Below are positions 33,000 to 64,000 of a stretch of 64,000 nucleotides of DNA, in pieces. Every line of letters begins with the position of its first letter. Position 1 is the stretch's first letter. Under the pieces are notes generated by a model. The model worked only from the letters and a program-made list of their open reading frames with translations, had not been told where the DNA came from and made no database searches. The DNA comes from Amphiura filiformis (Eukaryota; Echinodermata; Ophiuroidea; Amphilepidida; Amphiuridae): positions 31,874,204-31,938,203 of the forward strand of contig NC_092640.1 in assembly GCF_039555335.1 (NCBI RefSeq). The letters are read 5' to 3'. The position numbers were made by a program, and so were the translations under genes.

Positions 33000-33660
33000 G
33001 TAAAACTTTCTATTTCAGTTTTGTTTTATTCAAAATGACTTTCTATCTCAGTTTTGTTTAATTCATTCTTTTTTCAACACAACACTAAACAAGCACCATG
33101 TTTGCATCTTGATATTTACTTTTACTTCATTGAATTGTTTCATTTTTGTAAATCAATGGAGGAAAGTGGTGATTATCTGTGCAATAAAAGACGTGAAAGT
33201 GAATTGGCACATTATCTGCAACATTGTGTTTGAAGGGGACGTCTTGCATTTTCGTGTGGGTCCCATGTATGAATATAAAAATGCAGGAATCAAAGTAGGA
33301 CTATCGCACATGTGACCATTATTACTATTTTCCCACAAAAACTGTGGAAAGATCAAAATATTAGATCCTTTTTAACATCCTTAACATCCTCCGAAGATGT
33401 TAGGATCAATTTGCCCATTTTGATCCCATTTATGGTCAATTTCTGCACCATTTTATAAGCATGGGAACCCAACCTCAATAGTTATACTTATAGCATTGTA
33501 ATTCTTTTTACAATCTATGCATGGACCTACTGAAAACAACATAGATTGATACAATTGTAGGTTTAGATTTTTTAACCATAAGAAATATAAAGTATAAATA
33601 AAGTTCACAGCAATACCAAGTGACTCCCCAGGAATATTCTTAAACACGTTTGAAGGTCAT
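33000..33660. repeat. TLR upstream region, duplicated at the right edge
   Basis: This block, with GTTTTGTTTAATTCATTCTT, AACACTAAACAAGCACCATG and GGTCCCATGTATGAATATAA, recurs at about 63,460-63,930 in the same order and orientation. Its first 150 bp also match 61,380-61,540 and 61,550-61,690. It lies just upstream of the TLR and so probably duplicated with TLR genes. Confidence 0.8.
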
Positions 33661-39117: not shown

Positions 39118-39590
39118 TGTGTTAAAATCACACAACATGGGTCAAAGGGCACTATAATTGATTTGAGATATTGGATTAAAGGTGCGCAAAATACTGTTAC
39201 ACTTGCCTAGACAACTGTGAGGTTCATGCTTTGTGATGAAACATTAGATCGTTTATTATTAGCCAATCACAGTAGATATCTTTTCAGTCCCTTATGCCTA
39301 CACCCATATACCAATAAAGTTTTCTCTCTCTTGTGACGTACCCAAAAATGCTTGCCGCTTCAAAAAAATGTAGCTTTCCAATGGTTTTGAGTGCCAAATA
39401 ACAAAATAAGCATGTTAGTGCCATTTGGAAATCAGTAGTTTAGTTTAATTATTTTCATCATGTTTGTCGGTGGTACATATTAACTAAGTGCATAACTGAA
39501 TCAATTATGCCTGCTTTGGTCTCTCTGTGCACACACACATACCGCGTAATGTGCTACGAGTTGCGTATGCTAACACAAAATGTGCACGTT
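39118..39590. other. Spacer before the giant element
   Basis: AT-rich DNA with no recognised gene. It ends with CACGTT (39,585-39,590), the left target duplication of the foldback element. Confidence 0.5.
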
Positions 39591-40262
39591 TGTAAGAGCC
39601 CAATACGTAACAAAATCCCAGTACGTATCAATTTGATACGTATTGGGCTCAACCTCTTCTACCTAGAACAAAAAGTGGCAAAAAATAAATCATCCCGCCC
39701 AATACGTAACAAAACTAAAATTTAATTAAAATTACTTGATTCATACTTCCTCCCTCTGTAGTGGTTTTTGTTACGTATTGGGCTCTATACATTTTTTTGT
39801 TACGTATTGGGCTCCGGTTGTTTTTCAAGCAAATTATGGATATTATGTGCATGTGTTTTTATAGAAGTACTTTATATTGACCCAGTAACTCATTTTGAGT
39901 CTTTCTAGAACAAAATATTTGACAGTGTTTTATCTTTAGACTTGGAATTTAATTGTTACGTATTGGCCTCTGGTTATTTTAAAAGGAAATTATCATGATT
40001 AGGTGCATGTTTTTGTTATAGAATTACTTTATATTGACTCAGTAACTCATTGTGAATAATTTTGAGTCTTTCTAGAAAACATTTTTTGACAGTGTTTTTT
40101 CTCTAGACATAGAATTTTTTGTTGCGTATTGGGCTCTAGTTATTTTTAAAGCAAATTATGGGTTTGGGTGGATGTTTTTGTCATAGAATTACTTTATATT
40201 GACCCAGTAAATCCTTTTTTCATTCTAGAAAAAAAATTCGAGTGGTTCTAATGTATTGGGCT
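39591..40262. repeat. Left terminal segment with repeated GTTACGTATTGGGCTC boxes
   Basis: The box TTACGTATTGGGCTC or its complement occurs at the very end and again near 39,640, 39,770, 39,803, 39,957 and 40,122, separated by diverged repeats carrying TACTTTATATTGACCCAGTA. A perfect 21-bp palindrome built on TACGTATCAA lies at 39,622-39,642. Regular iteration of one box up to the tip suggests transposase-binding sites; this is inference. Confidence 0.7.
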
Positions 40263-43200
40263 CTATACATTTTAATGCGTTTTAGAGGTTACACTGTCGG
40301 AAAAGTTCTTTCATCCGGATTTTTTCGCATATATGGACATGACTTGACCTCCGGTTAATATTTATCGAAGAAAGAAAAAAATTCAAGTGGGTCTAATTTT
40401 TTGTTACGTATTGGGCTCTGTATTGGGGTCTGTATATTGTAATGCGCTTTGGAGGTTACATTGTCGGAAAAGCTCTTATCCGGATTTTTTTCGCATATAT
40501 GGACATGACCTGACCACCAGTTATTATTTATCGAAGAAAGAAAAAAATTCGAGTGTGTCTAATTTTTTGTTACGTATTGGGCTCTGTATATTTTTTATGC
40601 GTTTTGGAGGTTACACTGTCGGAAAAGCTCTTTTATCCAGATTTTTTCGCATATATGGACATGACTTGACCTCCGGTTAATATTTATCGAAGAAAGAAAA
40701 AAATCGAGCGGGTCTAATTTTTGTTACGTTATGCGTTTTGGAGGTTACACTGTCGGAAAAGCTCTTTTATCCGGATTTTTTCGCATATATGGACATGACT
40801 TGACCTCCGGTTAATATTTATCGAAGAAAGAAACAAATTCGAGTGGGTCTAATTTTTTGTTACGTATTGGGCTCCATACATTTTTTTTATGCGTTTTGGA
40901 GGTTACACTGTCGGAAAAGCTCTTTTATCCGGATTTTTTCGCATATATAGACATGACTTGACCTCCGGTTAATATAAATCGAAGAAAGAAAAAAATTCGA
41001 GTGGGTCTAATTTTTTGTTACGTATTGGGCTCCATATATATTTTATGCGTTTTGGAGGTTACACTGTCGGAAAAGCTCTTTTATCCGGATTTTTTCGCAT
41101 ATATAGACATGACCTGACCTCCAGTCAATATTTATCGAAGAAAGAAAAAATTCGAGTGGGTCTAATTTTTTGTTACGTATTGGGCTCTATACACTTTTGT
41201 TTATGCGTTTTGGAGGTTACACTGTCGGAAAAGCTCTTTTATCCGGATTTTTTTCGCATATATGGACATGACCTGACCTCCAGTCAATATTTATCGCAGA
41301 AAGAAAAAAAATCGAGTGGGTCTAATTTTTTGTTACGTATTGGGCTCTGTATATTTTTTATGCGTTTTTGAGGTAACACTGTCGGAAAAACTCTTTAATC
41401 CGGATTTTTTCGCATATATGGACATGACCTGACCTCCAGTTAATATTTATCGAAGAAAGAAAAATAATCGAGCGGGCCAAATTTTTGTTACGTTATGCGT
41501 TTTGGAGGTTACACTGTCTGACAAGCTCTTTTATCCGGATTTTTTCGCATATATGGACATGACCTGACCTCCAGTTAATATTTATCGAAGAAAGAAAAAT
41601 AATCGAGCGGGTCTAATTTTTTTGTTACGTTATGCGTTTTGGAGGTTACACTGTCGGAAAAGCTCTTTTATCCGGATTTTTTCTCATATATGGACATGAC
41701 TTGACCTCCAGTTAATATTTATCGAAGAAAGAAAAAAATTCGAGTGGGTCTAATTTTTTGTTACGTATTGGGCTCTGTATATTTTTATGCGTTTTTGAGG
41801 TAACACTGTCGGAAAAACTGTTTTATCCGGATTTTTCGCATATATGGACATGACCTGACCTCCAGTTAATATTTATCGAAGAAAGAAAAAAATCGAGCGG
41901 GTCTAATTTTTTGTTACGTTATGCGTTTTGGAGGTTACACTGTCGGAAAAGCTCTTTTATCCGGATTTTTTCTCATATATGGACATGACTTGACCTCCAG
42001 TTAATATTTATCGAAGAAAGACAAAAATTCGAGTGGGTCTAATTTTTTGTTACGTATTGGGCTCTATACATTTTTTATGCGTTTTGGAGGTTACACTGTC
42101 GGAAAGCTCCTTTATCCGGATTTTTTTCGCATATATGGACATGAGCTGACCTCCAGTTAATATTTATCGAAGAAAGAAAAAAATCGAGTGGGTCTAATTT
42201 TTTGTTACGTATTGGGCTCTGTATATTTTTTATGCGTTTTTGAGGTAACACTGTCGGAAAAACTGTTTTATCCGGATTTTTTCGCATATATGGACATGAC
42301 CTGACCTCCAGTTAATATTTATCGAAGAAAGAAAAAAATCGAGTGGGTCTAATTTTTTGTTACGTGTTGGGCTCTGTATATTTTTTTATGCGTTTTTGAG
42401 GTAACACTGTCGGAAAAACTCTTTTATCCGGATTTTTCGCATATAAGGACATGACCTGACCTCAAGTTAATATTTATCGAAGAAAGAAAAAAAACCGAGC
42501 GGGTCTATTTTTTGTTACGTTATGCGTGTTGGAGGTTACACTGTCGGAAAAACTCTTTTATCCGGATTTTTTCGCATATATGGACATGACTTGACCTCCA
42601 GTTAATATTTATTGAAGAAAGAAAAAAATTCGAGTGGGTCTAATTTTTTGTTACGTATTGGGCTCTATACATTTTTTATGCGTTTTGGAGGTTACACTGT
42701 CGGAAAGCTCCTTTATCCGGATTTTTTTCGCATATATGGACCTGACCTGACCTCCAGTTAATATTTATCGAAGAAAGAAAAAAAATCGAGTGGGTCTAAT
42801 TTTTTGTTACGTATTGGGCTCTGTATATTTCTTATGCGTTTTTGAGGTAACACTGTCGGAAAAACTGTTTTATCCGGATTTTTTTTTTTTTATGGACATG
42901 ACCTGACCTCCAGTTAATATTTATCGAAGAAAGAAAAAAAATCGAGTGGGTCTAATTTTTTGTTACGTGTTGGGCTCTGTTTATTTTTTTATGCGTTTTT
43001 GAGGTAACACTGTCGGAAAAACTCTTTTATCCGGATTTTTCGCATATAAGGACATGACCTGACCTCAAGTTAATATTTATCGAAGAAAGAAAAAAATTCG
43101 AGCGGGTCTAATTTTTTGTTACGTTATGCGTGTTGGAGGTTACACTGTCGGAAAAACTCTTTTATCCGGATTTTTTCGCATATATGGACATGACTTGACC

Positions 43201-44798
43201 TCCAGTTAATATTTATTGAAGAAAAAAAAAATTCGAGTGGGTCTAATTTTTTGTTACGTATTGGGCTCTATACATTTTTTATGCGTTTTGGAGGTTACAC
43301 TGTCGGAAAAGCTCTTTTATACGTATTGGGCTCTTCACATTTTTTATGCGTTTTGGAGGTTACACTGTCGGAAAAGGTCTTTTATCCGGATTTTTTGCAT
43401 ATATGGACATGACTTGACCTTCGGTTAATATTTATCGAAGAAAGAAAAAAATTCGAGTGGGACTAATTTTTTTGTTACGTATTGGGCTCTATACATTTTT
43501 TATGCGTTTTGGAGGTTACACTGTCGGGAAAGCTCTTTTATCCGGATTTTTTCGCATATATGGACATAACTTGACCTTCGGTTAATATTTATCGAAGAAA
43601 GAAAACAATTCGAGTGGGTCTAATTTTTTGTTACGTATTGGGCTCTAACCATTACCTATGTGTTTTGGAGGCTACACTCTCGGTAAAGCTCTTTTATCCG
43701 GATTTTTTCGCATATATGGACATGACCTGACCTCCATTAATATTTATCGACGAAAGAAAAAAAAAATACGGGCGGGTTTAATTTTTTGTTACGTATTGGG
43801 CTCTATACATTTTTTATGTGTTGGAGGTTACACTCTCGGTAAAGCTCTTTTATCCGAATTTTTTCGCATATGGACATGACCTGACCTCCAGTTAATATTT
43901 ATCGAAGAAAGAAAAAAATTCGAGGGGGTCTAATTTTTTGTTACGTATTGGGCTCTATACAATTTTTATGCGTTTTGGAGGTTACACTGTCGTCGGTAAA
44001 GCTCTTTTATCCGCATTTTTTCGCATATATGGACATGAGCTGACCTCCAGTTAATATTTATCGAAAAAAGAAAAAAAATTCGAGTGGGTCTAATTTTTTG
44101 TTACGTATTGGGCTCTATACATTTTTTATGCGTTTTGGAGGTTACACTGTCGGAAAAGCTCTTTTATCCGGATTTGTTTGCATATATGGACATGACCTGA
44201 CCTCCAGTTAATATTTATCGAAGAAAGAAAAAAATTCGGGTGGGTCTAGTTTTTTGTTACGTATTGGGCTCTATACATTTTTATGCGTTTTGGAGGTTAC
44301 ACTGTCGGTAAAGCTCTTTTATCCGAATTTTTTTCGCATATATGGACATTACCTGACCTCCAGTTAATATTTATCGAAGAAAGAAAAACATTCAAGTGGG
44401 TTTATTTTTTTGTTACGTTTTGCGTTTTGGAGGTTACACTGTCGGAAAAGCTCTTTTATCCGGATTTTTTCGCATATATATATGGACATGACCTGACCTC
44501 CAGTTAATATTTATCGAAGAAAGAAAAAAATCAAGGGGGTGTAATTGTTTTGTTTCGTTATACGTTTTGACTCCGACACTCTCAGAAAAGTTCTTCAATC
44601 CGGATTTTTTTTCTTTTTTTGAGTTGACCTGACCTCCGATTAATACCTATCGAAGAACGAAAAAAGTGGAGAGGGTCTAATTGTTACGTTATGCGTTTGG
44701 CTCCGACACTGTCCGAAAAGTTCTTTTATCCGGATTTTTTCGCATTTTGTCTTGACCTCCAAATTTATCGAAGAAAGAACAAAAATCGAGTGGCGATT
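40263..44798. repeat. Left satellite array, about 28 monomers of 130-165 bp
   Basis: Monomers carry GGAGGTTACACTGTCGGAAA, TTTTATCCGGATTTTTTCGC, ATATATGGACATGACCTGAC, CTCCAGTTAATATTTATCGA and TTGTTACGTATTGGGCTC. A short variant lacks ATTGGGCTC and the following T-rich stretch (for example near 40,728 and 41,490). A higher-order period of about 600 bp is visible: GCGTGTTGGAGG and CTGACCTCAAGTT both recur near 42.5 and 43.1 kb. Open frames here are repeat artefacts. Confidence 0.9.
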
Positions 44799-45870
44799 TA
44801 AAAAAAAAATTTGTACAGATATAGAAACTAAATTTTTTTTTTAATTTAAATTTTTTTGAAAGACTAGTCTTAATTGATTATCTAACAAGTATCCAGTAGT
44901 AAAAATTGACAATATCCCTAAATGGATGAACCAGTATTTAATACTTGTTAGGATTTTTAAAAGCTGAAGGTTTAAAAAAAAATCGACTGGACCGACCGGC
45001 CCATTCTTCCCATTTTGAACATAGAATAGCTTGTTATTTAGAGGGCGAATGCGTACGGGATGAGAGTGTGCTGGGATGAAAGTGTGCGGGCTGCGTGGAA
45101 ATATACGTGGTGAAAGTGTGCAGGGTGAAGTGTCCAGTATTATCCCTTACTTGCAATTTATTATGAATCGGATATTACTGTGCCCCACACAGTGTCATCG
45201 CCCCGATATCTTCATGGCAGAAATCGCCATGGTAGGTTGAATCCACAGCCACGCATGGCCATTTTGTTCCGACCTTTGAGACGCATAATTAGTCGAGGGA
45301 CACGACTAAGGCTACTCACAATAGCCGGGTAATTGATCTTGATTGTGCGTGAGTACGCTTGTATACGCCATTGATGTCAATGGTCATCGACTTTTATACT
45401 GCCTCCACGGGAGTAGTGAGTGCAGCTGTACTACGCGCTGTAGTCCATGCAGGACCAACGCAATATAAAATTAGAATTTTGGTGAGTTTTTGAGTTCAAG
45501 ACGCAAGCTTCTTTCTCAAGACGCTAGCTAACGACTATCATATATGTTCAACACGTATATTCAAGTGCAAGGAACCACATCTGGATTCTTCAGACGAAAT
45601 CATTTACGGGAGATATTCATCATTTTCTACCCCGCTATCCAAAGATTTTCGGCTGAATATCAAAATCGTGCAAAGCACATTCACGTGTATCGATCCCGGG
45701 TATTTATTTTAGTATCTCTGCATGTACCAAGTAACTATTTGCCAGGCGATGTCGGTGTGCCCCATTTACTCCCATTTTTTTATTTGCTCTATTTTAGTGG
45801 CAGAATTTGCTTTAAAATGAGTATAATATTGCCTTCACTTTGAATGCTCCTAATAGCTTAAAATTAAAAC
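44799..45870. other. Foldback centre, left part
   Basis: AT-rich start, then a block with GATGAAAGTGTGC-type short repeats (45,055-45,130). A 99-codon frame at 45,544-45,843 has no recognisable domain. Confidence 0.4.
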
Positions 45871-45876
45871 TTGTAT

Positions 45877-46568
45877 CCCAGCAAACACAAAAACGTTTTT
45901 AAAACGTTTTAAATAAGTTATATATTGGGTTTTGGTTTAGGTAAAAACGTTTTAATAACATTAAAATGTCGGGTTATATAAAGGTCATGAAATCGTTTTA
46001 AAACATTTTGTATGAAAACACACTACAACAACATTTTTAAAATGTTTTCGAAATGTCATTGAAAACTATTTTTGCAAACATTTTTGGCCAAATATTTTGT
46101 CAACACTTAAATAACATTATGTTAAAATATTTCCACCCAGCAAACACAGAAATGTTCTTAAAATGTTTACAAAACGTTTTAATAACATTTAAATGTCGGG
46201 TTATATAAAGGTCATGAAAACATTTTAAAAACGTTATTGTAAATATTTTGGCCAAACATTTTTTGCAAAATATTTTTTCAACCCCAAAATAACATTCTGT
46301 TTTAAAATGATTTGTACCAAGTTTGCAAAATTATTTTTGGAATGTTATTAAAACGTTTTTATACCCTTTATATAACCCGACATTTAAATGTTTTCTGTAA
46401 AACATTTGTGTTTGTTGGGCAGTAAATTACCAACATAGTTATTTAATGTTATGAAAACGTTTTATACCATTAATGTACCCTTTATATAACCCGACATTTA
46501 AACGTTTTCTGACAACCTTTTATAACCTTTTGGGAATGATGTCGAAAACGTTTTTGTGTTTGCTGGGA
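45877..46568. mobile_element. MITE with CCCAGCAAACAC ends
   Basis: Ends CCCAGCAAACACAAAAACG and CGTTTTTGTGTTTGCTGGG, flanked by TA. The interior is rich in AAAACGTTTT and TGTCGGGTTATATAAAGG with the complementary TTTATATAACCCGACATT, forming nested foldbacks; an internal CCAGCAAACACAGAAATG near 46,137 suggests a composite of two copies. Non-coding. Confidence 0.8.
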
Positions 46569-46569
46569 T

Positions 46570-48075
46570 ATCAATAATATAAAGTGTAATGCAAACTTTT
46601 GTAATGCAAGAAACTGCTCAAGATTATAAAAGAGGCTCCATCACTGTAAACACGCATTAGTGCCTACTATTAATTTCAAGAGTTCATAGGTCAAAAACCA
46701 GAGGTCTCAGAAAAATGTTTGTATTGACTTTTGATCCAAATATCCATCGCAACTTGATATACTTTCCATGACGCATAAATCATTTTGCAAACATTTACCA
46801 TGTAAAAATTACATTTTTGGGACAAAGCTGCAAAAAAACACAAAAAGTTACTCCCCCCATGCATATCCGATGACCCCTTTTATTGCTTTAACCTAAAATT
46901 TTGGTGAAACCGACACCAAATGATAAACATTTTCACTCCCCACAAACACTTTTGTGAGTCAACCAGGAATCAAATTTAAAAGAAGAGAATCCATTTTTCT
47001 GGAATCCGTCACTCCCCCTCTATCCTCCTGTTATGCTCATGGTGCGCCTAACTTTATAGGCCATATGCCTTTAACCATTATTAGTTTTCTAAATCACACC
47101 AGAATGCAGCAAATTAGTCCAAAATAGTCGAATGTCAATTTTCCGGGGGGGGGGGCTTTCCCACTGAGGCTTTGGACCACGACAGAGGCCTAGCATTGAG
47201 CCCCCTGGACCCCCTGTCGATGTCTTTGGGCACGCCCATGATATTCTTGCAGCAATTTCATGTTCAAAGGGAAGCAAGAAACGTCATTCCCCTCCATAAT
47301 AATTTCCAACTTGTTTTTATACTTTTGTAGGCCTACATCGCGGCATCACATGAGTAAATCTATGATTTTAGTGCTGTAAAATTCTGACTGGATAATGTGA
47401 GAACCAGTACAAGTGTCAACCGAAAGCATTCGATAAAAACAAATCAAAAACAAAAAGGACCAAGGACTTGTTTTTAGTTAGGAGAGGGGAACATCAATTT
47501 TTTTACCTGATTGGTGGGGGGAACCTGAAAGGGGGAACGTAAAAATCGAGAAAAAATATGGAAATCCTCCATCCCCTCTTGTTGGCGTAAATAATGACCG
47601 CTCCCTAAATGACGTAGCTTTATGGGCTGCCGCTAGAAGGGGGTGGGGTGGTATGGGGTGAGACACCCCTCCTCTAATTCTTAATGTTGTCGGTAAAAGT
47701 GACGGTTGTCGGCAAAACATATAGGATTGTCGGCAGATTACAAAAGCCAATGTGCGGAAGTTGTTGTTATACAATATTCTTATTGTAAAAGTAGTTAATA
47801 ATGAAAAAAAATATTGAGGAAAATTTTTTGATAATCACCCCCTCCCCCCTCCCCACACACACACCCACATCCACTTTTTAGATTCTTGAGCGCCCTGGCG
47901 AAAAAATACAAAAAATGTATTAGACAGACCAACATATTTCCGTCGGCAAAATATGCCGTATACCCCCCAATCCGATTGGTCTAACGACGCCCCTGCTTAC
48001 TTTGGTTCAGGGTGCCTGGGGCCGAAAGTAGATCGGGTGCACTGACCAAGGGTGTACAGTGTTACTAAAGGTTCG
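46570..48075. other. Foldback centre, G/C-run region
   Basis: No coding sequence recognised. Contains a run of G at about 47,143-47,155, C-rich stretches near 47,840-47,880, and GGGGTGGGGTGG-type tracts near 47,640. Confidence 0.4.
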
Positions 48076-48300
48076 CTATTCCGAAAACACGGTTCTCTAT
48101 TCCGAAGATTATCTATTCCGAAAATTCTCAAAACACAAACAGGCTCTCTATTTCAAAACAAGTCACCGTGTTCTCTACTCCGAATATGAAAAAAGTTCTC
48201 TATTCGGAATATGAAAAAAATTCTTTATTCCGAAATGAGTCACCGTGATCTCTATTCCGAATTATAAAAAGGCTTCATTTTTCCGAATCTGTCGATGTTG
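48075..48300. repeat. Short tandem repeat based on TCTCTATTCCGAA
   Basis: About ten imperfect copies of CTCTATTCCGAA with variable AAACAC or TATGAAAAA spacers. The period varies (20-40 bp). Confidence 0.75.
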
Positions 48301-48599
48301 AATCATGTTTGAGCCCTCTAGCAAGGTCCTTCGAAGTTGACCAAAGCACCACTAAACCAATGTGTCATGTGTGGAAGAACCGTAACAAATGTCTGTTTTT
48401 TTTATTTAAAAAAATTCAATAGAGGTATCTGGAGTTCCTCTGATTACTTGTGATGGTAGAGAATAGTTTGAAGTTTGTAACTGTGGAGTCTGCAATGTTT
48501 TGCACGTGAAGAACAATTATAGAAAATTAGCTAATTTGCATACAATTTGCATGGTCACCTAACCGTCATCATGCATGGTCATCAAGTATATTGCTAATC

Positions 48600-49145
48600 A
48601 GACAATATGAAGATAGCTGATGACTATGTGAAGTCATTGCTATCTACTGATGTTAGCTGATGGCTCTCTGAAATCATTGTTATCTACTGAATATAGCTGA
48701 TGACTAAGTTAAGTCTTTGATATCTACTGATGTTAGCTGATGGCTCTGTGGAGTCATTGCTATCTACTGAAGATAGCTGGCTGCTCTGTGAAGTTATTGC
48801 TATCTACTTAGAAAAGGTGGCGGCTATGTAAACTCATTGATATCTACTTAAGACACTGGTGGCTATGGGAAGTCAGTGCTATTAAATGAAGATAGTTGAC
48901 TGGTCTGTGAAGTCATTACTATCTACCATGTCTACTGAAGATTACCGATGGCAATGTGAAGTCAGTGCTATCAAATAAATATCTGCGAAATCATTACTAT
49001 CTAACTAGTGAAGATAGCTGTTGGCTATATAAAGTCAGTGCTATCTGCTGAAGATAACCAGTGCTATCTACTTAAGATATAACTGATGGATAAGTTAATG
49101 CTATATAGCGGGGTTAGCTGATGGCTCTGTGAAGTTATTCTCACC
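48600..49145. repeat. Minisatellite GATAGCTGATGGCTCTGTGAAGTC
   Basis: About ten diverged copies of a roughly 50-bp unit with TAGCTGATGGCT, GTGAAGTCATTGCTATCTA and CTGA. A further cluster lies at 49,540-49,730 on the far side of the telomere-like block. Confidence 0.8.
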
Positions 49146-49315
49146 TACTAAAGGGAAACAGGACATTTCGCATCCCTACCATTTCACCCCCTACATGCTG
49201 AACTGCTGAATATAGTGCCCACACACCACGTATCTACTAAAGGGAAACAGGACACTTCGCCTACCTGACATTTCGCCCCCTACATGCTGAACTGCTAAAT
49301 ATAGTGCCAACCCAC
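49145..49315. repeat. Two tandem copies of a roughly 85-bp unit
   Basis: Both start CTACTAAAGGGAAACAGGAC and contain CCCCCTACATGCTGAACTGC and ATATAGTGCC. Non-coding. Confidence 0.75.
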
Positions 49316-49319
49316 CGAA

Positions 49320-49485
49320 TTGGTTATGGTTAGGGTTTAGGGTTTGGACTTTAGGATATTCGGGTTAAGGTTTTCAGAACGTAAGGGTAAGGGCGCTGCT
49401 TGTAGTCAGGGTTTTGGTTTGGGACTTGGGTTAAGATGTATAGTTATAGGGCTTAGGGTAAGGGTTAAAGGTTAGGGTGAGGGTT
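49320..49485. repeat. Degenerate TTAGGG-like tract
   Basis: Contains GGTTAGGGTTTAGGGTTTGG and GGGTAAGGGTTAAAGGTTAG among diverged variants. It resembles interstitial telomeric sequence but is irregular; it may be a simple G-rich repeat. Confidence 0.55.
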
Positions 49486-49739
49486 ACGGCCCTATATCAA
49501 TTGTCAACTTGATACAGTATTTGCCAATTTAGAAATGGTCATATAAAGTCATTGTTATCTATTGATATAAGCTGATGGCTATGTAAAGTCATATTTATTT
49601 ACTGAGGTTGCTGATGGCTATGTGAAGTAATTGCTATCTATAGCTGATGGTTATGTAAAGTCAGTGCTATCAAATGAAGATAGCAGATTGTTCTGTGAAG
49701 TCATTGCTATCTACTGAAGATTATATTTCATATTTTATT

Positions 49740-50470
49740 TCATTGTGGCATTTTTCCCAGGGGGCGTTGAACCTCCTTGATATACGAAGGTCATTCAAAA
49801 AACTCTACCTCCACTCTTATAACTTCTGTCCTGTATAAAATGATAGCTTCTTCAAGCTTAACATATTATACATTTAAATGTTACCTACAATGTATTTTGA
49901 TACATTTTCCATTTTTTTGTAGGTGAACTCATAACCAAAATAAGATTTTATATGCCAGAAACGTTAAAAAGTCGTAAACATTTAAATGAAAATATGTGTG
50001 TCTTCCTCTTACGAGATTAGCTCGATATACAAGTGTTATGATTAGGTATTAAAAAAAATTGTTGTGTTGCTCTCCGCGGCCGGGTCAAAATCGCGAAAAT
50101 AATTATGGGCCCGGTTTTTGGGGGTTTAAAAAAAATTTAATCAGTAAACTAAGAGTTAATTGTGAAGGGCCTTGATATTATTTACTTTAATAAAATATTC
50201 AACATCGGGTAGAAAATACAGCCGATATTATGCATTTGCCTCTCTTCACTCATGTTACTGTGAAATAGTAGGTATCAAATGATTGAGTTGGTAAAAAAAA
50301 ATCCGGCCGGCTGTACCACCAGATTTAGGCTTGGGAGGGCAAGACAACAATTTAGTTTTTTTGGCCTAATATGCTAGCATATTATAAATGAAACAACATC
50401 AAATGTGTAACCAAACATTAATAATACCAGTTATAAAATGAATTTTATGTTTAAAACATATCCCAGCATC
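49740..50470. other. Foldback centre, non-coding
   Basis: AT-rich, no recognisable gene or mobile element ends. Confidence 0.35.
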
Positions 50471-50664
50471 AATTCTTTTCGGTAAATCCCATAAGCCTTT
50501 GCGAGTACACATGAGATGTCGTTACTTGACGTCACGTCGACTTATATACAATGCGCAATAACGATGTAAAACGATGTTCGCATCGGCCTGACGCGTACTG
50601 AAGTCAAGTGACGACATCTCAGGTGTAATCGCAAAGGCTTATGGGTTCACCGAAAAGGTCAATT
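50471..50664. mobile_element. 194-bp MITE
   Basis: Ends AATTCTTTTCGGTAAATCCC and a near reverse complement GGGTTCACCGAAAAGGTCAATT. Inner arms CATAAGCCTTTGCGAGTACAC and GTAATCGCAAAGGCTTATG pair. Non-coding. Confidence 0.75.
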
Positions 50665-51384
50665 ACACGAAATAGACACTGAAGTAATAATTTAGCAAGA
50701 TTGAAAAAATATGTGCGTTTCCGATCACCCCTCCGGACCACACCCTAATCAGCACCAATGGAGTATCGCCCTGGGACAGAGTGGCAAGTTCTCCTTTCCT
50801 GCTCAGTCGACAGAAATGTGAAAAAAAATACAGTTTGCAATTTCCTTTTGGTTTATTTTAGACTTAAAATTAACCCCATTTTGGGCCATGTCAACGTCCT
50901 TTTTTTTCAAAAAGGACTGTACGCTAAACATTAAATTGGCCTCATGTGCTTTTCATATTTGTCAACAATGTAGACCTAAATAACTATACCCAAATTTTCA
51001 CAAAATACAGTCCGAAATTGAATCAAGCGCCGATAAAATTTCGAAAGCGGTGGTCTCACGGGGCTGTCTTAAAAGGGGGATGGGGTCATTATGTCCGACC
51101 AGAGTCCATTTTGTTTACGGTCGCCCTGTCTCTCTCCGTTTTCTCTTTTTCTCCTCCCACTCTTCTTTATACGTTGACCATCACGTTCTTTCTTTGCTTA
51201 GGCCTATATCTCTACGTTTTCTCTCCTTTTATTCGTTCTTCTATGCAATTTATTCCCGCGTTTCATCACAGTCCACCGGCTTTCTTTTAAACCCTCCTAC
51301 CCTCGGATCCGTGGATAATGACTGGTAATGAAGACTATGTAACAGTATATCTTGGTGTAGATTATTCATCCAGTAGTTGAAAAC
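50665..51384. other. Foldback centre, non-coding
   Basis: A 114-codon open frame at 50,946-51,290 is hydrophobic and Ser/Phe/Tyr-rich because of CT-rich DNA (TCTCTCCGTTTTCTC...). No domain is recognised, and it is probably not a gene. Confidence 0.35.
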
Positions 51385-51535
51385 ATTATTTGTAAATTAA
51401 ATCAAATACTGGAACTAAAATTTGCAACTCACTTTGCTACCTTGCGTCCGAAAGCATCGGACTTCGTCAGGCATCTGATTGAAGATGTTGTGATGACGTC
51501 AGATGTTCCAGTATTTGATTTAATTTACAAATAAT
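51385..51535 (-). mobile_element. 151-bp terminal-repeat element with degenerate hammerhead-like core
   Basis: Perfect 29-bp inverted ends: 51,385-51,413 (ATTATTTGTAAATTAAATCA...) and 51,507-51,535. On the minus strand the centre reads CTGACGA (51,464-51,470), a stable hairpin GTCCGATGC/GGAC, then GCAA in place of GAAA, and CAAAGTGAG, which parallels CAAGTGAG after the ribozyme of the Penelope element at 25.0 kb. It may be the terminal remnant of a different Penelope-like element or an independent small hammerhead-derived element. Confidence 0.5.
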
Positions 51536-53494
51536 ACTATGTAACATTATTAATCAGTTCAATGTTTGGTTACTGGTTACTGGATTTTCGATTACAATAT
51601 TTTTTCATTAAAAGAAATAATAGTGTATGTCAATCATTACACTACAATTTTTATTTCTAGGGCTCTTTGATTTCTTCAAATAAAGTAAATCCCCTGGCCC
51701 TCTATAATTACGCACAAAAGATCGCCGCATGATCCGACAGTGTGTGTAATCATTGACATTGATTTGTGGAGAAAGAAGAATGGATTTTTGGCACGGTAGG
51801 CCTATTTTAGAAGCGGAATTTCAAACTGGGGCGGGTTAATGGGGTTACAGAACTTTTTGTTCATAGGTCGTATGTAATTATGTATCATTCCATTATCCAA
51901 AGATGGAACCGAACCAAGATTGTGGGACAGTCCAGGACTGTCTGTGTGGGACTGCACACATCTCACACAACACTCATCTCAAAGTTTGTTCGGTGCATCA
52001 TGCACTTATTGTTGCCTACATGTATGCACACAACCAAGGGGGTGACACTAACTTCACGGTTGTTCTATTAGCATGCAAATGAAAAATTCCGCTGGTTTAC
52101 TAGCTAGAAAGTGAGGCCAGTTATCGATCCGTTGTGAATAATTCATGTTCGACCCCTTGGATCACTGTTAATTGATATTGGCAAATAACAACGTTGTTAG
52201 TTTTTTTCAAAGAAAGTCTACTAATTTGATATGAAATGACATTTTGCAATAGCAAAGTCAAAATTAGGACTTGAGGTCAATAATATGAAGGTAATACGTG
52301 ACAGAGGCAAGGTGTGAAACACAAGTAGTATTTGAAGTTAAAATAACCTTTGATACCCGACCTGACCTTCCATAGCTTTCCATCATGGCGCCTTATTCGT
52401 CTTTATGTATTTCTATTATGCTCTCAAGTAAAATAAAATACCAATCTGCACTAAGCAGACAGAATGTTACTTGGCTCCCAGCATGAATTATTGATTTTAT
52501 ACGGAGGTAAAGAAATGCACAGTTGCCTGCAAGCCGTGCACCATACTCCAAATATTTACGGTAAATCTGAATAATGGTCACATGTTGACATATCATGTGT
52601 TCGGGAAATCACGTGGCAACATTTTAAGATTTCAGACTTGTTTACTAGTTAAATTGTCATTTGTATTATTGATTATTTATCTTTGTTAATTAATATATCT
52701 TTTAAATGCTGATAAATCGTGGTTGGATGCCCATATTATATTTTAAATTCAATGTTTTATGAATATAATTCTACCACGCAGAGGGGGTCACACAGCATAA
52801 TTTCACACTACACGATTTAGCTAGATTTGGAGCTCTGCACTTCAAATTCACGTCAATTTCAAAGTTTATACACTTAATATATTTAATATAATACTTATTT
52901 TTTTGTTATAACTAACTGGAACACGAAATATACTAGCTTATTACCTATACAGAAAGGGGATTTATACACATTCACTCAGCAATTTGACATGCCTGGCGCA
53001 TCAAGACATTCTCTGTCTGGATAACATGACTGTCGCCCTCAATACGTCTGGGCACAAATTTAAATAACAATACGCTATTTACATATGAATGCGGCCTCAT
53101 GCTAATTTCTAATGACGCTTCCAGGTATTGTTCTATGACACAACACACGGGCACTCACAATAGGCAATTGACCCATACATGATGCAGTCATGTCTACAGT
53201 AGAATTCACCACGAACTTTGCAGGACTTAAACACCATTAAAAGCTATTAAACCAAGATAACACTCATTGAAAACAGCTCAACTGATTAAATCAGATCTTC
53301 TCTGGTTGTGCACATGTGTCTGTTTTATATGTGCGGTATCGCAATGAGCTGCTATTATAGGTTCAGTTGCGTAACCGATTATAAAGGAAACGCAAGGAAA
53401 CAATGGTATGTGGACCTTCGTTCACGAAATGAGACAATGGTCTGCTTTTTGTTAACCAGCATTCTTGAAAATGAGCAACATAATGATTGTTGAT
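51536..53494. other. Foldback centre, right part
   Basis: AT-rich DNA. Short frames at 51,880, 52,393, 52,972 and 53,308 have no recognisable domain. No RNA gene seen. Confidence 0.35.
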
Positions 53495-53498
53495 TTAA

Positions 53499-53628
53499 GG
53501 GCTGGGGTATGAACGTTTGGACAGTATTTATTTTGGGACATTAGAGAACATCAGACATATCGAATTGCATTCTGAATACGAAGAATGTCCTTCTGATATC
53601 AAATAATTTTGATTTTTTGAAATTCGCA
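53499..53628. mobile_element. Truncated copy of the TTAA palindromic MITE
   Basis: Begins at TTAA (53,495-53,498) with GGGCTGGGGTATGAACG and follows 19,613-19,745 closely through TTTTTTGAAATTCGCAAT, then stops. The right half and right TTAA are missing. Confidence 0.85.
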
Positions 53629-54253
53629 ATCGCTCATTGGATTAATATTATCACGTGGTAATAAATTTGCATTGGACAATCAATTACTATAATGGTTTAG
53701 TACTGCATATCTCGGTTTAATCTCCACTAAGCGGGTTTATGGTTGGAAAGGTCACGGTGAATTTGCCGTGGACAACATAACTGCACTATGATTTTAACAA
53801 GCGATTTGTTACGAACGAATGAACTAAATGACACGGGTATTGCTTCAGCTTACTTCGCCGCTAAAAATATCAGAATAAAACCAATTTTTTTGACATTAAC
53901 ACCTACAAATGGAATAACCTATCCAAAATAACACCTTTTTTTGTCTATGATTTATATTAATGGGATATCAAATGAAGTCGAAACCAAAAAAATCCTATAA
54001 ACCCCATTTTTTGACATGCAAACGCATAACATAACAAAATCTGTGAACTTGTAGTCCTACTGTATATGGCATACGGTATTGGATGGCCTAGGGGAAAGTT
54101 AGCCCATATTTGCAAGACTATCCTTGCCTTCAAGGTAAAACAAACATACTCATGTTACCCTCTGGCCATGGGCTGGCCCGGTGTCAGATCTTACCCAGGG
54201 AAGATGACATTCCAATATGCGCCTTTAAAAGAAATAGTCGGTACTTCCTTTTT

Positions 54254-57200
54254 CTTCAATAAATAAATATTAATTGGAGATCAAATCAAGTAAATCCTTG
54301 CGAAAAAATCCGGATAAAAGAACTTTTCCAGCAGTGTAACCTCCAAAACGCATAACGTAACAAAAAATTAGAACCACTCGAATTTGTTCTTTCTTCGATA
54401 AATATTAACCGGAGGTCAAGTCATAACAATATATGCGAAAAAATCCGGATAAAAGAGCTTTTCCAACAGTGTAACCTCCAAAACGCATAAAAAATGTAAA
54501 AAGCCCAATACGTTACAAAAATTAGACCCACTCGAATTTGTTTCTTTCGATAAATATTAACAGGAAGTCAAGTCATGTCCATATATGCGAAAAAATCCGG
54601 ATAAAAGAGCTTTTCCGACAGTGTAACCACCAATACGCATAAAAAAATTATAGAGCCCAATAAGTAACAACAAATTAGAACCACTCGATTTGTTTTTCTT
54701 TCTTCGATAAATATCAACCGGAGGTCAAGACATGTCCATATATGCAAAACACAATCCGGATAAAAGAGCTTTTCCGACAGTGTAACCTCCAAAACGCATA
54801 ACGTAACAAAAAATTAGACCCACCCGAATTTTTTTTTTCTTTTTCCGATAAATAGCAACCGTGGGTCGAGTCATGTCCATATATGCGAAAACAATCCGGA
54901 TAAAAGAGCTTTTCCGACAGTGTAACCTCCAAAACGCATAAAAAATGTATAGAGCCCAATACGTAACAAAAAATTAGACCCACTCGATTTTTTTTCTTTC
55001 TTCGATAAATATTAACTGGAGTTCAGGTCATGTCCATATATGAGAAAAAATCCCGATGAAAGAGCTTTTCCAACAGTGTAACATCTAAAACGCATAAAAA
55101 ATGTATTCAGCCCAATACGTAACAAACAATTAGAACCACTCGATTTTTTTTCTTTCTTCAATAAATATTAACCGAAGGTCAAGTCATGTCCATATATAAA
55201 AAAAAATCCGGATAAAAGAGCTTTTCCGACAGTGTAACCTCCAAAACATATAAAAATGTATAGAGCCCAATACGTAACAAAAAATTAGACCCACTCGAAT
55301 TTTTTTCTTTCTTCGATAAATATTAACTGGAGGTCAGCTCATGTCCATATATGCGAAAAAATCCGGATAAAAGAGCTTTTCCGACAGTGTAACCTCCAAA
55401 ACGCATAAAAAATGTAAAGAGCCCAATGCGTAACAAAAAATTAGACCCACTCGAATTTTTTTTCTTTCTTCGATAAATATTAACTGGAGGTCAGCTCATG
55501 TCCATATATGCGAAAAAATCCGGATAAAAGAGCTTTACCGACAGTGTAACCGCCAAAACACATAAAAAATGTATACAGCCCAATACGTAACAAAAAATTA
55601 GACCCACTCGAATTTTTTTTTTCTTTCTTCGATAAATATTAACTGGAGGTCAGCTCATGTCCATATATGCGAAAAAATCCGGATAAAAAGTTTTTCCGAC
55701 AGTGTAACCTCCAAAACGCATAAAAAATGTATAGAGCCCAATACGTAACAAAAAATTAGACCCACTCGAATTTTTTTCTTTTTTCGATAAATATTAACCG
55801 AAGGTCAAGTCATGTCCATATATGCGAAAAAATCCGGATAAAAAGCTTTTCCGACAGTGTAACCTCCAAAACGCATAAAAACTGTAAAGAGCCCAATGCG
55901 TAACAAAAAATTAGACCCACTCGAATTTTTTTCTTTCGTCGATAAATATTAACTGGAGGTCAGCTCATGTCCATATATGCGAACAAATCCGGATAAAAGA
56001 GCTTTACCGACAGTGTAACCTCCAAAACACATAAAAATGTATACAGCCCAATACGTAACAAAAAATTAGACCCACTCGAATTGTTTTCTTTCTTCGATAA
56101 ATATTAACTGGAGGTCAAGTCATGTCCATATATGCGAAAAAATCCGGATAAAAGAGCTTTTCCGACAGTGTAACCTCCAGAACGCATAAAAATTGTAAAG
56201 AGCCCAATACGTAACAAAAAATTAGACCCACTCGAATTGTTTTCTTTCTTCGATAAATATTAACCGGAGGTCAAGTCATGTCCATATATGCGAAAAAATC
56301 CGGATAAAAGAGCTTTTCCGACAGTGTAACCTCCAAAACGCATAAAAAATGTAAAAAGCCCAATACGTAACAAAAAATTAGACCCACTCGATTTTTTTTC
56401 TTTCTTCGATAAATATTAACTGGAGGTCAGGTCATGTCCATATATGCGAAAAAATCCCGATAAAAGAGCTTTTCAAACAGTGTAACCTCTAAAACGCATA
56501 AAAAATATATACAGCCCAATACGTAACAAAAAATTAGAACCACTCGATTTTTTTTCTTTCTTCAATAAATATTAACCGGAGGTCAAGTCATGTCCATATA
56601 TGCGAAAAAATTCGGATAAAAGAGCTTTACCGACAGTGTAACCTTCAAAACGCATAAAAAATGTATAGAGCCCAATACGTAACAAAAAATTAGACCCACT
56701 CGAATTTTTTTCTTTCTTCAATAAATGTTAACTGGATGTCAGCTCATGTCCATATATGCGAAAAAATCCGGATAAAAGAGCTTTACCGACAGTGTAACCT
56801 CCAAAACGCATAAAAATTGTGTAGAGCCCCATACGTAACAAAAAATTAGACCCACTCGAATTTTTTTCTTTCTTCGATAAATATTAACCGAAGGTCAAGT
56901 TATGTCCATATATGCGAAAAAATCCGGATAAAAGAGTTTTTCCGACAGTGTAACCTCCAAAACGCAAAACGTAACCAAAAAATTAGACCCACTCGATTTT
57001 TTTCTTTCTTCGATAAATATTAACCGAAGGTCAAGTCATGTCCATATATGCGAAAAAATCCGGATAAAAGAGCTTTTCCGACAGTGTAACCTCCAAAACG
57101 CATAAAAAATGTAAAGAGCCCAATACGTAACAAAAAATTAGACCCACTCGAATTTTTTTTCTTTCTTCGATAAATATTAACTGGAGGTCAGCTCATGTCC

Positions 57201-60200
57201 ATATATGCGAAAAAATCCGGATAAAAGAGCTTTACCGACAGTGTAACCTCCGAAACACATAAAAAATGTATACAGCCCAATACGTAACAAAAAATTAGAC
57301 CCACTCGAATTGTTTTCTTTCTTCGATAAATATTAACTGGAGGTCAAGTCATGTCCATATATGCGAAAAATCCGGATAAAAGAGCTTTTCCGACAGTGTA
57401 ACCTCCAGAACGCATAAAAATTGTAAAGAGCCCAATACGTAACAAAAAATTAGACCCACTCGAATTGTTTTCTTTCTTCGATAAATATTAACCGGAGGTC
57501 AAGTCATGTCCATATATGCGAAAAAATCCGGATAAAAGAGCTTTTCCGACAGTGTAACCTCCAAAACGCATAAAAAATGTAAAGAGCCCAATACGTAACA
57601 AAAAATTAGACCCACTCGATTTTTTTTTTCTTTCTTCGATAAATATTAACTGGAGGTCAGGTCATGTCCATATATGCGAAAAATCCCGATAAAAGAGCTT
57701 TTCCAACAGTGTAACCTCTAAAACGCATAAAAATATATACAGCCCAATACGTAACAAAAAATTAGAACCACTCGATTTTTTTCTTTCTTCAATAAATATT
57801 AACCGGAGGTCAAGTCATGTCTATATATGCGAAAAATTCGGATAAAAGAGCTTTACCGACAGTGTAACCTTCAAAACGCATAAAAATGTATAGAGCCCAA
57901 TACGTAACAAAAAATTAGACCCACTCGAATTTTTTCTTTCTTCAATAAATGTTAACTGGATGTCAGCTCATGTCCATATATGCGAAAAAATCCGGATAAA
58001 AGAGCTTTACCGACAGTGTAACCTCCAAAACGCATAAAAATTGTGTAGAGCCCCATACGTAACAAAAAATTAGACCCACTCGAATTTTTTTCTTTCTTCG
58101 ATAAATATTAACCGAAGGTCAAGTTATGTCCATATATGCAAAAAAATCCGGATAAAAGAGTTTTTCCGACAGTGTAACCTCCAAAACGTATAAAAAAATG
58201 TATAGAGCCCAATACGTAATAAAAAATTAGACCCACTCGATTTTTTTTCTTTCTTCGATAAATATTAAGCGAAGGTCAAGTCATGTCCATATATGCGAAA
58301 AAAATCCGGATAAAAGAGCTTTTCCGACAGTGTAACCTCCAAAACGCATAAAAAATGTAAAGAGCCCAATACGTAACAAAAAATTAGACCCACTCGAATT
58401 TTTTTTCTTTCTTCGATAAATATTAACTGGAGGTCAGCTCATGTCCATATATGCGAAAAAATCCGGATAAAAGAGCTTTACCGACAGTGTAACCTCCGAA
58501 ACACATAAAAAATGTATACAGCCCAATACGTAACAAAAAATTAGACCCACTCGAATTGTTTTCTTTCTTCGATAAATATTAACCGGAGGTCAAGTCATGT
58601 CCATATATGCGAAAAATCCGGATAAAAGAGCTTTTCCGACAGTGTAACCTCCAAAACGCATAAAAAATGTAAAGAGCCCAATACGTAACAAAAAATTAGA
58701 CCCACTCGATTTTTTTCTTTCTTCGATAAATATTAACTGGAGGTCAGGTCATGTCCATATATGCGAAAAAATCCCGATAAAAGAGCTTTTCCAACAGTGT
58801 AACCTCTAAAACGCATAAAAAATATATACAGCCCAATACGTAACAAAAAATTAGAACCACTCGATTTTTTTTCTTTCTTCAATAAATATTAACCGGAGGT
58901 CAAGTCATGTCCATATATGCGAAAAAATTCGGATAAAAGAGCTTTACCGACAGTGTAACCTTCAAAACGCATAAAAAATGTATAGAGCCCAATACGTAAC
59001 AAAAAATTAGACCCACTCGAATTTTTTTTTTTCTTTCTTCAATAAATGTTAACTGGATGTCAGCTCATGTCCATATATGCGAAAAAATCCGGATAAAAGA
59101 GCTTTACCGACAGTGTAACCTCCAAAACGCATAAAAATTGTGTAGAGCCCTATACGTAACAAAAAATTAGACCCACTCGAATTTTTTTCTTTCTTCGATA
59201 AATATTAACCGAAGGTCAAATTATGTCCATATATGCAAAAAAATCCGGATAAAAGAGTTTTTCCGACAGTGTAACCTCCAAAACGTATAAAAAATGTATA
59301 GAGCCCAATACGAAACAAAAAATTAGACCCACTCGATTTTTTGTCTTTCTTCGATAAATATTAACCGAAGGTCAAGTCATGTCCATATATGCGAATAAAA
59401 TCCGGATAAAAGAGCTTTTCCGACAGTGTAACCTCCAAAACGCATAAAAAATGTAAAGAGCCCAATACGTAACAAAAAATTAGACCCACTCGAATTTTTT
59501 CTTTTTTCTTCGATAAATATTAACTGGAGGTCAGCTCATGTCCATATATGCGAAAAAATCCGGATAAAAGAGCTTTACCGACAGTGTAACCTCCGAAACA
59601 CATAAAAATGTATACAGCCCAATACGTAACAAAAAATTAGACCCACTCGAATTGTTTTCTTTCTTCGATAAATATTAACCGGAGGTCAAGTCATGTCCAT
59701 ATATGCGAAAAAATCCGGATAAAAGAGCTTTTCCGACAGTGTAACCTCCAAAACGCATAAAAATTGTAAAGAGCCCAATACGTAACAAAAAATTAGACCC
59801 ACTCGAATTTTTTTCTTTCTTCGATAAATATTAACCGGAGGTCAAGTCATGTCCATATATGTGACAAAATCCGGACAAAAGAGCTTTTCCGACAGTGTAA
59901 CCTCCAAAACGCATAAAAAATGTAAAGAGCCCAATACGTAACAAAAAATTAGACCCACTCGAATTTGTTTCTTTCTTCGATAAATATTAACTGGAGGTCA
60001 GGTCATGTCCATATATGCGAAAAATCCCGATGAAAGAGCTCTCCAACAGTGTAACCTCTAAAACGCATAACAAATGTATACAGCTTTAATACGTAACAAA
60101 AAATTTGAACCAATCGATTTTTTTTTTTTTTTCTTCGATAAATTTGCAGGTCAAGTCATGTCCATATATGCGAAAAAATTAGGATAGAAGAGCTTTTCCG

Positions 60201-60260
60201 ACAGTGTAACCTCCAAAACGCATAAAAAATGTATAGAGCCCAATACGTAACAAAAAAATC
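54254..60260. repeat. Right satellite array, inverted, about 37 monomers
   Basis: Same satellite as the left array but reverse-complemented (GCGAAAAAATCCGGATAAAA, GACAGTGTAACCTCCAAAAC, GAGCCCAATACGTAACAAAA). The variant CCCGATAAAAGAGCTTTTCC with AACCTCTAAAACG recurs near 55,052, 56,455, 57,685, 58,771 and 60,025, giving higher-order units of 1.1-1.4 kb. Spurious frames arise from the repeats. Confidence 0.9.
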
Positions 60261-61165
60261 CAGAGGAAAAACACTGACAAATATTTTGTTCTAAAAATAC
60301 TCAAAATGACTCTAGAAAGAGTCACAAATGACTCAAAATGAGTTACTGGGTCAATATAAAGTAATTCTATAACAAAAACACGCACTAATAACCATAATTT
60401 GCTTTAAAAATAACCAGAGCCCAATACGTAAAAAGAAAAATTCTATGTCTAAAGAAAAAACACTGTCAAAATGTTTCTAGAAAGACTCAAAATGACTCAC
60501 AATGAGTTACTGAGTCAATATAAAGTAATTATATAACAAAAACATGCACCTAAAACCCATAATTTGCTTTAAAAATAACCAGAGCCCAATACGTAACAAA
60601 ACATTCTAAGTCTAGAGAAAAAACACTGTCAAAAAATTTTTCTAGAAAGCCTCAAAATGACTCAAAAGGATTTACTGAGTCAATATAAAGTAATTCTATA
60701 ACAAAAACATGCACCTAAAACCCATAATTTGCATTAAAAATAACCAGAGCCCAATACCAAATGACTCAAAAGGATGTACTAAGTCAACATGATAATTTCC
60801 TTTTAAAATAACCAGAGGCCAATACGTAACAAATAAATTCCAAGTCTAGAGATAAAACACTGTCAAATATTTTGTTCTAGAAAGACTCAAAATGAGTTAC
60901 TGGCTCAATATAAAGTACTTCTATAAAAACGCATGCACATAATATCCATAATTTGCTTGAAAAACAACCGGAGCCCAATACGTAACAAAAACCACTACAG
61001 AGGGAGGGAGTATGAATAAAGTAATTTTAGTTAAATTTTAGTGTTGTTACGTATTGGGCGGGATGATTTATTTTTTGCCACTTTTTGTTCTAGGTAGAAG
61101 AGGTTGAGCCCAATACGTATCAAATTGATACGTACTGGGATTTTGTTACGTATTGGGCTCTTACA
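60260..61165. repeat. Right terminal segment of the foldback element
   Basis: Inverted counterpart of 39,591-40,262, with GAGCCCAATACGTAAC boxes near 60,237, 60,417, 60,582, 60,746 (partial), 60,967 and the tip, and diverged TACTGGGTCAATATAAAGTA spacers. It is about 230 bp longer than the left because of one more spacer unit. The 21-bp palindrome recurs at 61,114-61,134. Confidence 0.8.
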
Positions 61166-61690
61166 CACGTTTAGTATCAGAATACTTACTAAACGGTATT
61201 ACTGTGCAGTGTTAAAAACTTGTGGTATAGCTAAAAACTTCATATTATATAATATAGAATTATTGTAAACCTTTGACCCATGCAATTAAATAAGTTTATA
61301 TCATAGGCATAAGCAGGATGCGTGATCAATTGTAAACTGTGTTCAGAGAATAATACAAACTCTGCATAAGTTTTATTTCATTCAAAATTACTTTTTATTA
61401 TAGTTTTGTTTTTATTCATTCTTTTATCAGATTAGCACAAACAAACATTATGTTTGCATCTTAAATACAGTATACTGTTACATTATTGAGTTTCATTTTC
61501 TTTTAATCAATTTAGGAAAGCTAGCAAGCCAGAAAAGAAATAAAAGTCATCCATATTACTTTCTATGAACATTCACTCAAATATATCAGTTTTGTTTAAT
61601 TCAATCTTTTAGCACTAAACAAGCATTGTGTTTGCACTCTAATATTTGCTTTTACGTCGTTGAGTTTCATTTTCTTTTAACAGCTACCTT
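61166..61690. repeat. Right flank with two partial copies of the TLR upstream motif
   Basis: Starts with the target duplication CACGTT. From about 61,380 and again from 61,550, GTTTTGTTT...TTCATTCTTTT, CAAACATTATGTTTGCATCT or AAACAAGCATTGTGTTTGCA and TTGAGTTTCATTTTCTTTTA match 33,010-33,150. Confidence 0.65.
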
Positions 61691-62022
61691 CGACTATATT
61701 TATAAATACGTATTTATAAATATGCACCTGACCCATGGACACGGCATGCCAAGACCATCAAGCGGGACCAAATCCTCATGTCATTGGAAAGGATAGGAAC
61801 TTATAATATGTTATCAAAAACAACATTTTAAAATTATTTATCGACGGAAACGTTACAATATAATCACAAAGTTCAACAAAATAGACACTTTTGCTGCATT
61901 GCATAGTCTGCCGCATTGTTTACCGCATTTGCATTCAAATAAAAAGGAAGACCACCTGCTGTGTAGATGGTCACTTCAGTTGTTATGGCAGCGCGGAGGT
62001 GGTACGTAAATATAGTCGAAGC
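61688..62022. mobile_element. MITE with CTTCGACTATATTTA ends
   Basis: Perfect 15-bp inverted ends (CTTCGACTATATTTA and TAAATATAGTCGAAG) enclose about 300 bp without coding content. Confidence 0.6.
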
Positions 62023-62404: not shown

Positions 62405-62580
62405 ATTAACAAAGACACATTTGCTTTGGGTAGTCACAAAGATACATTTGCTTTGGATTGTCCCAAAGACCAATTTGCCTTGAATTATTCCAAAGACACA
62501 TTTGCTTTGGATTGTCCCAAAGACACATTTGCTTTGGATTGTCCCAAAGACACATTTGCTTTGGATTGTCCCAAAGACTT
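62405..62580. repeat. Minisatellite, 26-bp unit, about six copies
   Basis: Unit ACATTTGCTTTGGATTGTCC plus CAAAGAC. The first copies are diverged and the last four nearly identical. A resulting open frame (LLWIVPKTH repeats) is an artefact. Confidence 0.9.
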
Positions 62581-63460: not shown

Positions 63461-64000
63461 CAAAGAACTTTCTACTATAGTTTTGTTTCATTCAAAATGA
63501 CTTTTTATATAAGTTTTGTTTAATTCATTATTTTACAGAGCAGCACTAAACAAGCATCATGTTTGCATCGCAGTATTGACTTTCACATCATAGAGATGTT
63601 TCATTTGTGTAAGTCAATGGAGGAAAGTTGCGATTTTCTATGCATGAAAAGAAGTGAAAATAAGAGTGATAGTGACATTACATTATTTCGTAATATTGTG
63701 GTGGGAGGGGTGATCTTGCATTTTGCTCAGGGTCCCATGTATGAATATAAAAATGCAGGACTTAAATTACATTAGGACTACCGCATTTAAAATTACTATT
63801 ACTGAAAAAAAAGTGGAAATATTGAGAAATTGGACATCATTGGATTCTATGTTGGATTATTTTGCTCATTTTTGACCCCCATTCATGGTCAATTTCACCA
63901 CCCTTTTATAAGCATGGAAACCCAACTTCAATAATCATAATAACTGATAATATTCTGATAAGATGGTTTATTCTTTTTAATTAATGTTTGTTCCGCATCG
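63460..64000. repeat. Second copy of the TLR upstream region
   Basis: Colinear with 33,010-33,490: GTTTTGTTTAATTCATTATT, AAATGCAGGA, GTCAATGGAGGAAAG, GGTCCCATGTATGAATATAA and AGCATGGAAACCCAACTTCA. The window ends before the position where the TLR start codon would fall (about 64.4 kb by analogy). Confidence 0.8.

Follow-up and report, generated by a model that had tools for sequence, protein, structure and literature searches.

The window (the whole stretch of DNA that was analysed, 64,000 nucleotides of Amphiura filiformis) contains several coding regions to the left of the structure that is our main subject. At 21899-25099, two open reading frames (ORFs; 22417-23508 and 23562-25013) are enclosed by inverted arms of 504 nt with 99% complementarity, and a second inverted repeat lies further in; the second of these ORFs gives a GIY-YIG match just under the cut-off, and the whole looks like a Penelope-like retroelement. 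The minus strand of 25423-28300 carries an endonuclease ORF and a reverse transcriptase ORF of the non-LTR retrotransposon type, in separate reading stretches. A single 963-aa ORF occupies 33927-36818 and shows seven LRR_8 stretches and a match to the TIR domain, as in proteins of the Toll-like receptor type; the end of this ORF may be cut short, because the TIR match stops at profile position 100 of 179. Together these coding regions suggest animal DNA. Beyond these features lies a 21.6-kb element made up of the following parts, where 'box' denotes a 17-bp motif of the tips, TGTTACGTATTGGGCTC.

39585-39590: left target-site duplication (TSD), CACGTT
39591-39610 (+): left tip, the outer 20 bp of the inverted repeat, 0 mismatches
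39591-39768 (+): left terminal segment, in which the box occurs in either orientation
39769-39797 (+): 29-bp insert without a counterpart on the right, made of a box followed by the start of the 156-bp satellite
39798-40228 (+): left array of a ~165-bp repeat (A), with box
40229-44794 (+): left 156-bp satellite (B), 30 monomers counted
44795-54248: centre, with palindromic repeats and a 40-bp minisatellite; none of its 13 ORFs of at least 70 aa above a Pfam cut-off
54249-60252 (-): right 156-bp satellite (B), 39 monomers counted, with a higher-order repeat of 7-8 monomers
60253-60987 (-): right array of the ~165-bp repeat (A)
60988-61165 (-): right terminal segment
61146-61165 (-): right tip, 0 mismatches
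61166-61171: right target-site duplication, CACGTT

The boundaries of the element are sharply defined. Its inverted tips are perfect copies of the 20-bp sequence TGTAAGAGCCCAATACGTAA, on the plus strand at 39591-39610 and on the minus strand at 61146-61165; the chance expectation for such tips is a mean of 0.00 (100 shuffles), and the termini read TGTAA..TTACA. Just past the tips the inverted homology is lost: when the adjoining 60 bp of the two sides are compared in inverted orientation, 18 of 60 positions are identical. The flanking CACGTT copies match exactly, which happens with a frequency of 0.00044 among random pairs of 6-mers drawn from the flanks; taking the left T as part of the target gives a 7-bp duplication, but asymmetric tips. 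Both the termini and the exact 6-bp duplication claimed in the preliminary description of this DNA are therefore upheld. Within the element, the outer 410 bp on the left align with the outer 375 bp on the right with 367 of 375 aligned positions identical, leaving 8 substitutions (2.1%) and 35 gap columns, 29 of which are a single insert; the termini differ at 4 of their first 160 aligned positions. The right flank also contains repeats: at 61368-61765 there are copies, with about 75-77% similarity, of a repeat of ~100-150 bp that is found at 33017-33166 and 63479-63627 as well, and a tandem repeat with a 27-bp unit in 6.3 copies occupies 62410-62578.

The arms measure about 5.2 kb (left) and 6.9 kb (right) and consist mostly of the 156-bp satellite, outside which each carries the second, unrelated repeat of ~165 bp. 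These values refine an earlier estimate of arms of 5-7 kb made of a 150-bp satellite, whose monomer length has to be revised to ~156 bp. The colinear order proposed at the same time is present, with the ~165-bp array as an addition: each arm leads from the tip through the terminal segment, the ~165-bp array and the 156-bp satellite to the centre, the right arm mirroring the left. HMM-based cutting of the satellite produced 73 rows and, once the short rows at 39765, 40229, 43281 and 60259 had been dropped, 69 B monomers (30 left and 39 right, degenerate edge copies included), 12 of which are shorter, at 131-140 bp, with most of the box missing. The left arm has a higher-order repeat of ~600 bp (4 monomers) at 41630-43309 with 97.2% identity (1014/1043), whereas in the right arm, from monomer R04 to R27, it is monomers 7 or 8 places apart that are nearly identical. 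The arms thus differ in higher-order period, as they do in length, copy number and variants. Mean monomer identity is 0.894 within the left arm, 0.912 within the right and 0.898 between them and, since the between-arm value is close to the within-arm values, both arms probably held satellite before they diverged.

The box has 75 matches in the window (with up to 4 mismatches), and 75 of 75 lie inside the element. Their orientation follows that of the arms: 28 of 31 are on the plus strand in the left arm and 41 of 44 on the minus strand in the right, and the three reversed boxes of each arm are all found in its outermost ~120 bp, interspersed with a single forward copy. Folded as single-stranded DNA, the outer 210 bp (39591-39800) reach -40.6 kcal/mol (z -9.27, with 0 of 200 shuffles as good), a result to be expected because inverted boxes would fold in this way. 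The box is also the only sequence that we detected as common to the A and B monomers; when it is removed, hand-made consensus sequences of the two align with a score of 2.0, against a shuffle mean of -0.04 (sd 4.0), and 170 of 500 shuffles score at least as high. What is new at this locus is a 17-bp tip motif that recurs 75 times within an element and is the sole sequence common to two unrelated monomers. Some of the junctions between repeats fit an exchange at the box. The right A/B junction falls within a box at 60236-60252, and the 29-bp insert that is missing from the right arm, where the satellite HMM matches 39765-39795 (E 4.3e-4), sits between two boxes; the left A-to-B switch, at ~40225, lies upstream of a box and does not fit. 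That A and B share only the box, and that some junctions fall at it, therefore suggests how the monomers arose: the box may have seeded both arrays, and the satellites seem to have grown from a short motif at the element's own tips. Selection to keep the box within the satellites is a different matter and is unsupported. Major-base frequency is 0.945 in the box and 0.943 in the rest of the monomer, 85 of 140 windows of 17 columns within B score above the box, and we see no sign of such selection because conservation is not higher there and the 12 shortened monomers (of 69) do without most of it.

The centre, of ~9.45 kb, has a GC content of 0.371, compared with 0.366 in the left flank, and contains nested repeats, both palindromic repeats and a minisatellite. 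One palindromic element, at 45877-46567, has CCCAGCAAACAC ends, AT on both sides and internal repeats. In a comparison of the centre with the rest of the window, 2 of 47 similarity matches (E up to 1e-5) lie outside it. The 136-bp piece at 53495-53630, a dispersed repeat with copies both within the element and beyond it, is 97% identical to 19609-19743, which overlaps a larger inverted repeat (19628-20246); a portion of these 136 bp also matches 20132-20246 (117 bp) at 88% identity. Pfam was searched (E up to 1) with the 13 ORFs of at least 70 aa among the 26 stop-to-stop ORFs listed for the region; shorter coding ORFs or intron-bearing genes may still be present in the centre. None of the 13 reaches a family cut-off; four give weak matches (E 0.039-0.22), all below the cut-offs of the families concerned. 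For ORFs of this length, the earlier statement that the element holds no recognisable enzyme is confirmed. We also considered an inner-domain inverted repeat and rejected it, as only one 25-bp match (84%, E 0.026) is present just inside the satellites. The inner ends of the arms carry no tip, and both satellites end after a box-deleted monomer, within 11 of 156 positions of phase (chance about 0.15).

A middle part between long, inverted, tandemly repeated arms, together with a TSD, marks the structural class of foldback elements. All of these features are present at this one locus, which is probably occupied by a non-autonomous foldback DNA transposon. The strongest competing explanation is that a small foldback element or MITE was inserted and that most of the satellite, perhaps together with much of the centre, grew or arrived later, in which case only a small part of the 21.6 kb would have been mobile. 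It draws on the age of the right array, where R04-R10 and R11-R17 differ at 9 of 1085 positions (0.83%), R11-R19 and R19-R27 at 11 of 1375 (0.80%) and R04-R11 and R19-R26 at 17 of 1224 (1.39%; in each case all monomers, gaps set aside), compared with 8 of 375 (2.1%) at the tips, and also on the nested repeats of the centre, the unequal length of the arms and the difference between their higher-order periods. The contrast with the tips is, however, borderline: Fisher's p is 0.052, 0.043 and 0.34 for the three comparisons and ranges from 0.038 to 0.508 across seven block choices, and all of these tests have to be read in the light of the fact that block ends were picked after the offset table had been seen. 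One block choice, without monomers R06, R11 and R13, gives a right-array divergence of ~0.5%; with all monomers the values are 0.8-1.4%, and we do not regard them as clear proof of post-insertion growth. Since the difference between the right-arm units and the tips is borderline, growth of the right array after insertion is possible, and the data are suggestive of part of it postdating insertion if the tips were identical at that time and rates have been equal. Against a late origin of most of the satellite stand the two repeat types and their order, which are common to both arms, and a monomer identity that is as high between the arms (0.898) as within the left arm (0.894). We consider this explanation unlikely. 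The same evidence, a borderline difference between right-arm units at 0.8-1.4% and tips at 2.1% and a centre with nested repeats, qualifies the preliminary description, according to which about one third of the window moved as a unit; this is shown for the two ends only, and the size of the element on insertion may have differed from the present 21.6 kb.

A poorer case can be made for an inverted satellite block formed by rearrangement, or for two independent insertions around host DNA, which were never mobile as a whole. The centre, in which none of the ORFs tested passes a Pfam cut-off and whose GC content resembles that of the left flank, could be host sequence, and besides the single 25-bp match there is no inverted repeat just inside the satellites. 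The 6-bp duplication placed exactly at the tips, the lack of a tip at the inner ends of the arms and, with the modest chance value given above, the shared phase at which both satellites end after a box-deleted monomer speak against these origins, which strike us as quite improbable. A composite moving between two foldbacks, as in the Ising TE mentioned in PMC6431247, would be a variant of our main reading. That the structure is an assembly artefact, a collapsed or mirrored repeat, is very improbable: satellite arrays are prone to assembly error, but the two arms do not agree in length, in copy number, in their variants or in higher-order period, the flanks do not mirror each other (18/60 identical), and only the 136- and 117-bp pieces of the centre recur elsewhere in the window.

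Taken as a foldback transposon, the element can be compared with known systems. FB/TU foldback elements have repeat units of tens of bp and an 8-9-bp TSD. Membership of this group, with its short units, is rejected for an element with a 156-bp unit, because the 6-bp TSD does not fit 8-9 bp. The likeness in design that had been pointed out before does stand, as FB (Drosophila) and TU (sea urchin), both of which are named in PMC4079207, likewise have a variable middle set between tandem-repeat arms in inverted orientation. This design has already been described, in Tetris and Galileo, and the present element stands apart by the length of its arms, by its TSD and by having two monomers that share the box. 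Tetris of Drosophila virilis is, in the excerpted description, a non-autonomous foldback element with TIRs of up to 1,735 bp, ~220-bp tandem repeats and a TSD of 8-10 bp, and satellite arrays derive from its repeats (PMC4079207). In both elements a TIR consists of an outer domain and then tandem repeats, followed by a variable non-coding middle, and the outer domain and the repeat have a short stretch in common (37 bp, ~80%, in Tetris; PMC4079207). Unlike Tetris, the element described here has arms (~5.2 and 6.9 kb) that are 3-4 times the longest Tetris TIR, and two repeat types (156 and ~165 bp) sharing only the box in place of one 220-bp repeat (PMC4079207). Its TSD of 6 bp (7 at most, with asymmetric tips), against 8-10 bp, leads us to reject a Tetris or Mutator-type foldback. 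Galileo, of the P superfamily, has a TIR of about 1.26 kb, three ~210-bp repeats and a 7-bp TSD, and shares with our element long TIRs whose internal tandem repeats differ in number between the two TIRs (PMC3573991, as excerpted); it too is rejected, on the 6-bp TSD with symmetric tips, which becomes 7 bp only if one tip loses a base. Transposase sites in TIR repeats have been proposed or reported for both Tetris (PMC4079207) and Galileo (PMC3573991), the Galileo excerpt stating secondary sites for one subfamily. The preliminary description knew of no named family. This is correct for the sequence, seven fragments of the element finding no match in the open-access literature (Repbase and subscription papers lie outside that scope), but not for the design, to which Tetris is very similar (PMC4079207, in part). 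Searches of viral_contigs returned 0 stretches with the box and 0 with a satellite 21-mer, and genome_contigs gave one box match of 18 bp, in Methylovorus sp., which we read as chance.

The ends and the TSD can also be set against families defined by their enzymes. Polinton/Maverick elements are self-synthesising, with many genes and AG..CT-type ends. Their TSD is of 6 bp, as here, according to the excerpts of PMC10045372, which give IS3EU a 6-bp TSD and TA..TA ends, unlike the TG..CA of our element, and GingerRoot a 6-bp TSD with ends that are mostly TA..TA and occasionally TG..CA. TGTAA..TTACA with CACGTT agrees with the latter, weakly and for one insertion (PMC10045372). No integrase-like transposase gene of the GingerRoot kind is present among the 13 centre ORFs of at least 70 aa, and a non-autonomous copy would lack one. 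Ginger elements have similar TGTNR ends and a 4-5-bp TSD (PMC2836005), so that Ginger1 and Ginger2 differ from our element with its 6 bp (PMC10045372, PMC2836005). The descriptions of GingerRoot, IS3EU and Ginger2, so far as excerpted, are without satellite arms, unlike this element (PMC10045372, PMC2836005). Dada has a 6-bp TSD in U6 genes (PMC3706591, in part) and is rejected, no Rfam family having reached its gathering score in the window. As the families compared are set apart in these partial descriptions, the ends and TSD fit an integrase-like enzyme best, which we offer as a lead only.

These observations can be combined into a mechanism. A transposase made elsewhere would bind the 17-bp box, cut at TGTAA..TTACA and paste the element with a 6-bp stagger. 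Because the box is repeated in the arms, it is plausible that unequal exchange between boxes amplified the intervening sequence and so gave rise to the tandem repeats A (~165 bp) and B (156 bp), the second of which may then have expanded further, perhaps partly after insertion. As a lead only, resting on two short features of one insertion, the TG..CA ends and 6-bp stagger would point away from Mutator and P and towards an enzyme of integrase-like (GingerRoot/Polinton) type. The fullest version of this account, a foldback of more than 20 kb moved by an integrase-like enzyme, whose transposase-binding tip box seeded two unrelated satellites by exchange between boxes and which built a higher-order-repeat satellite within itself and carried it along, is possible and we put it forward tentatively.

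The locus offers a readable example of a transposon end turning into satellite DNA. It also yields a testable claim, that such satellites start from transposase sites repeated within the arms of an element. The transposase of this element, if found, would tell us whether foldbacks as large as this one can be mobilised by an enzyme of the integrase type.
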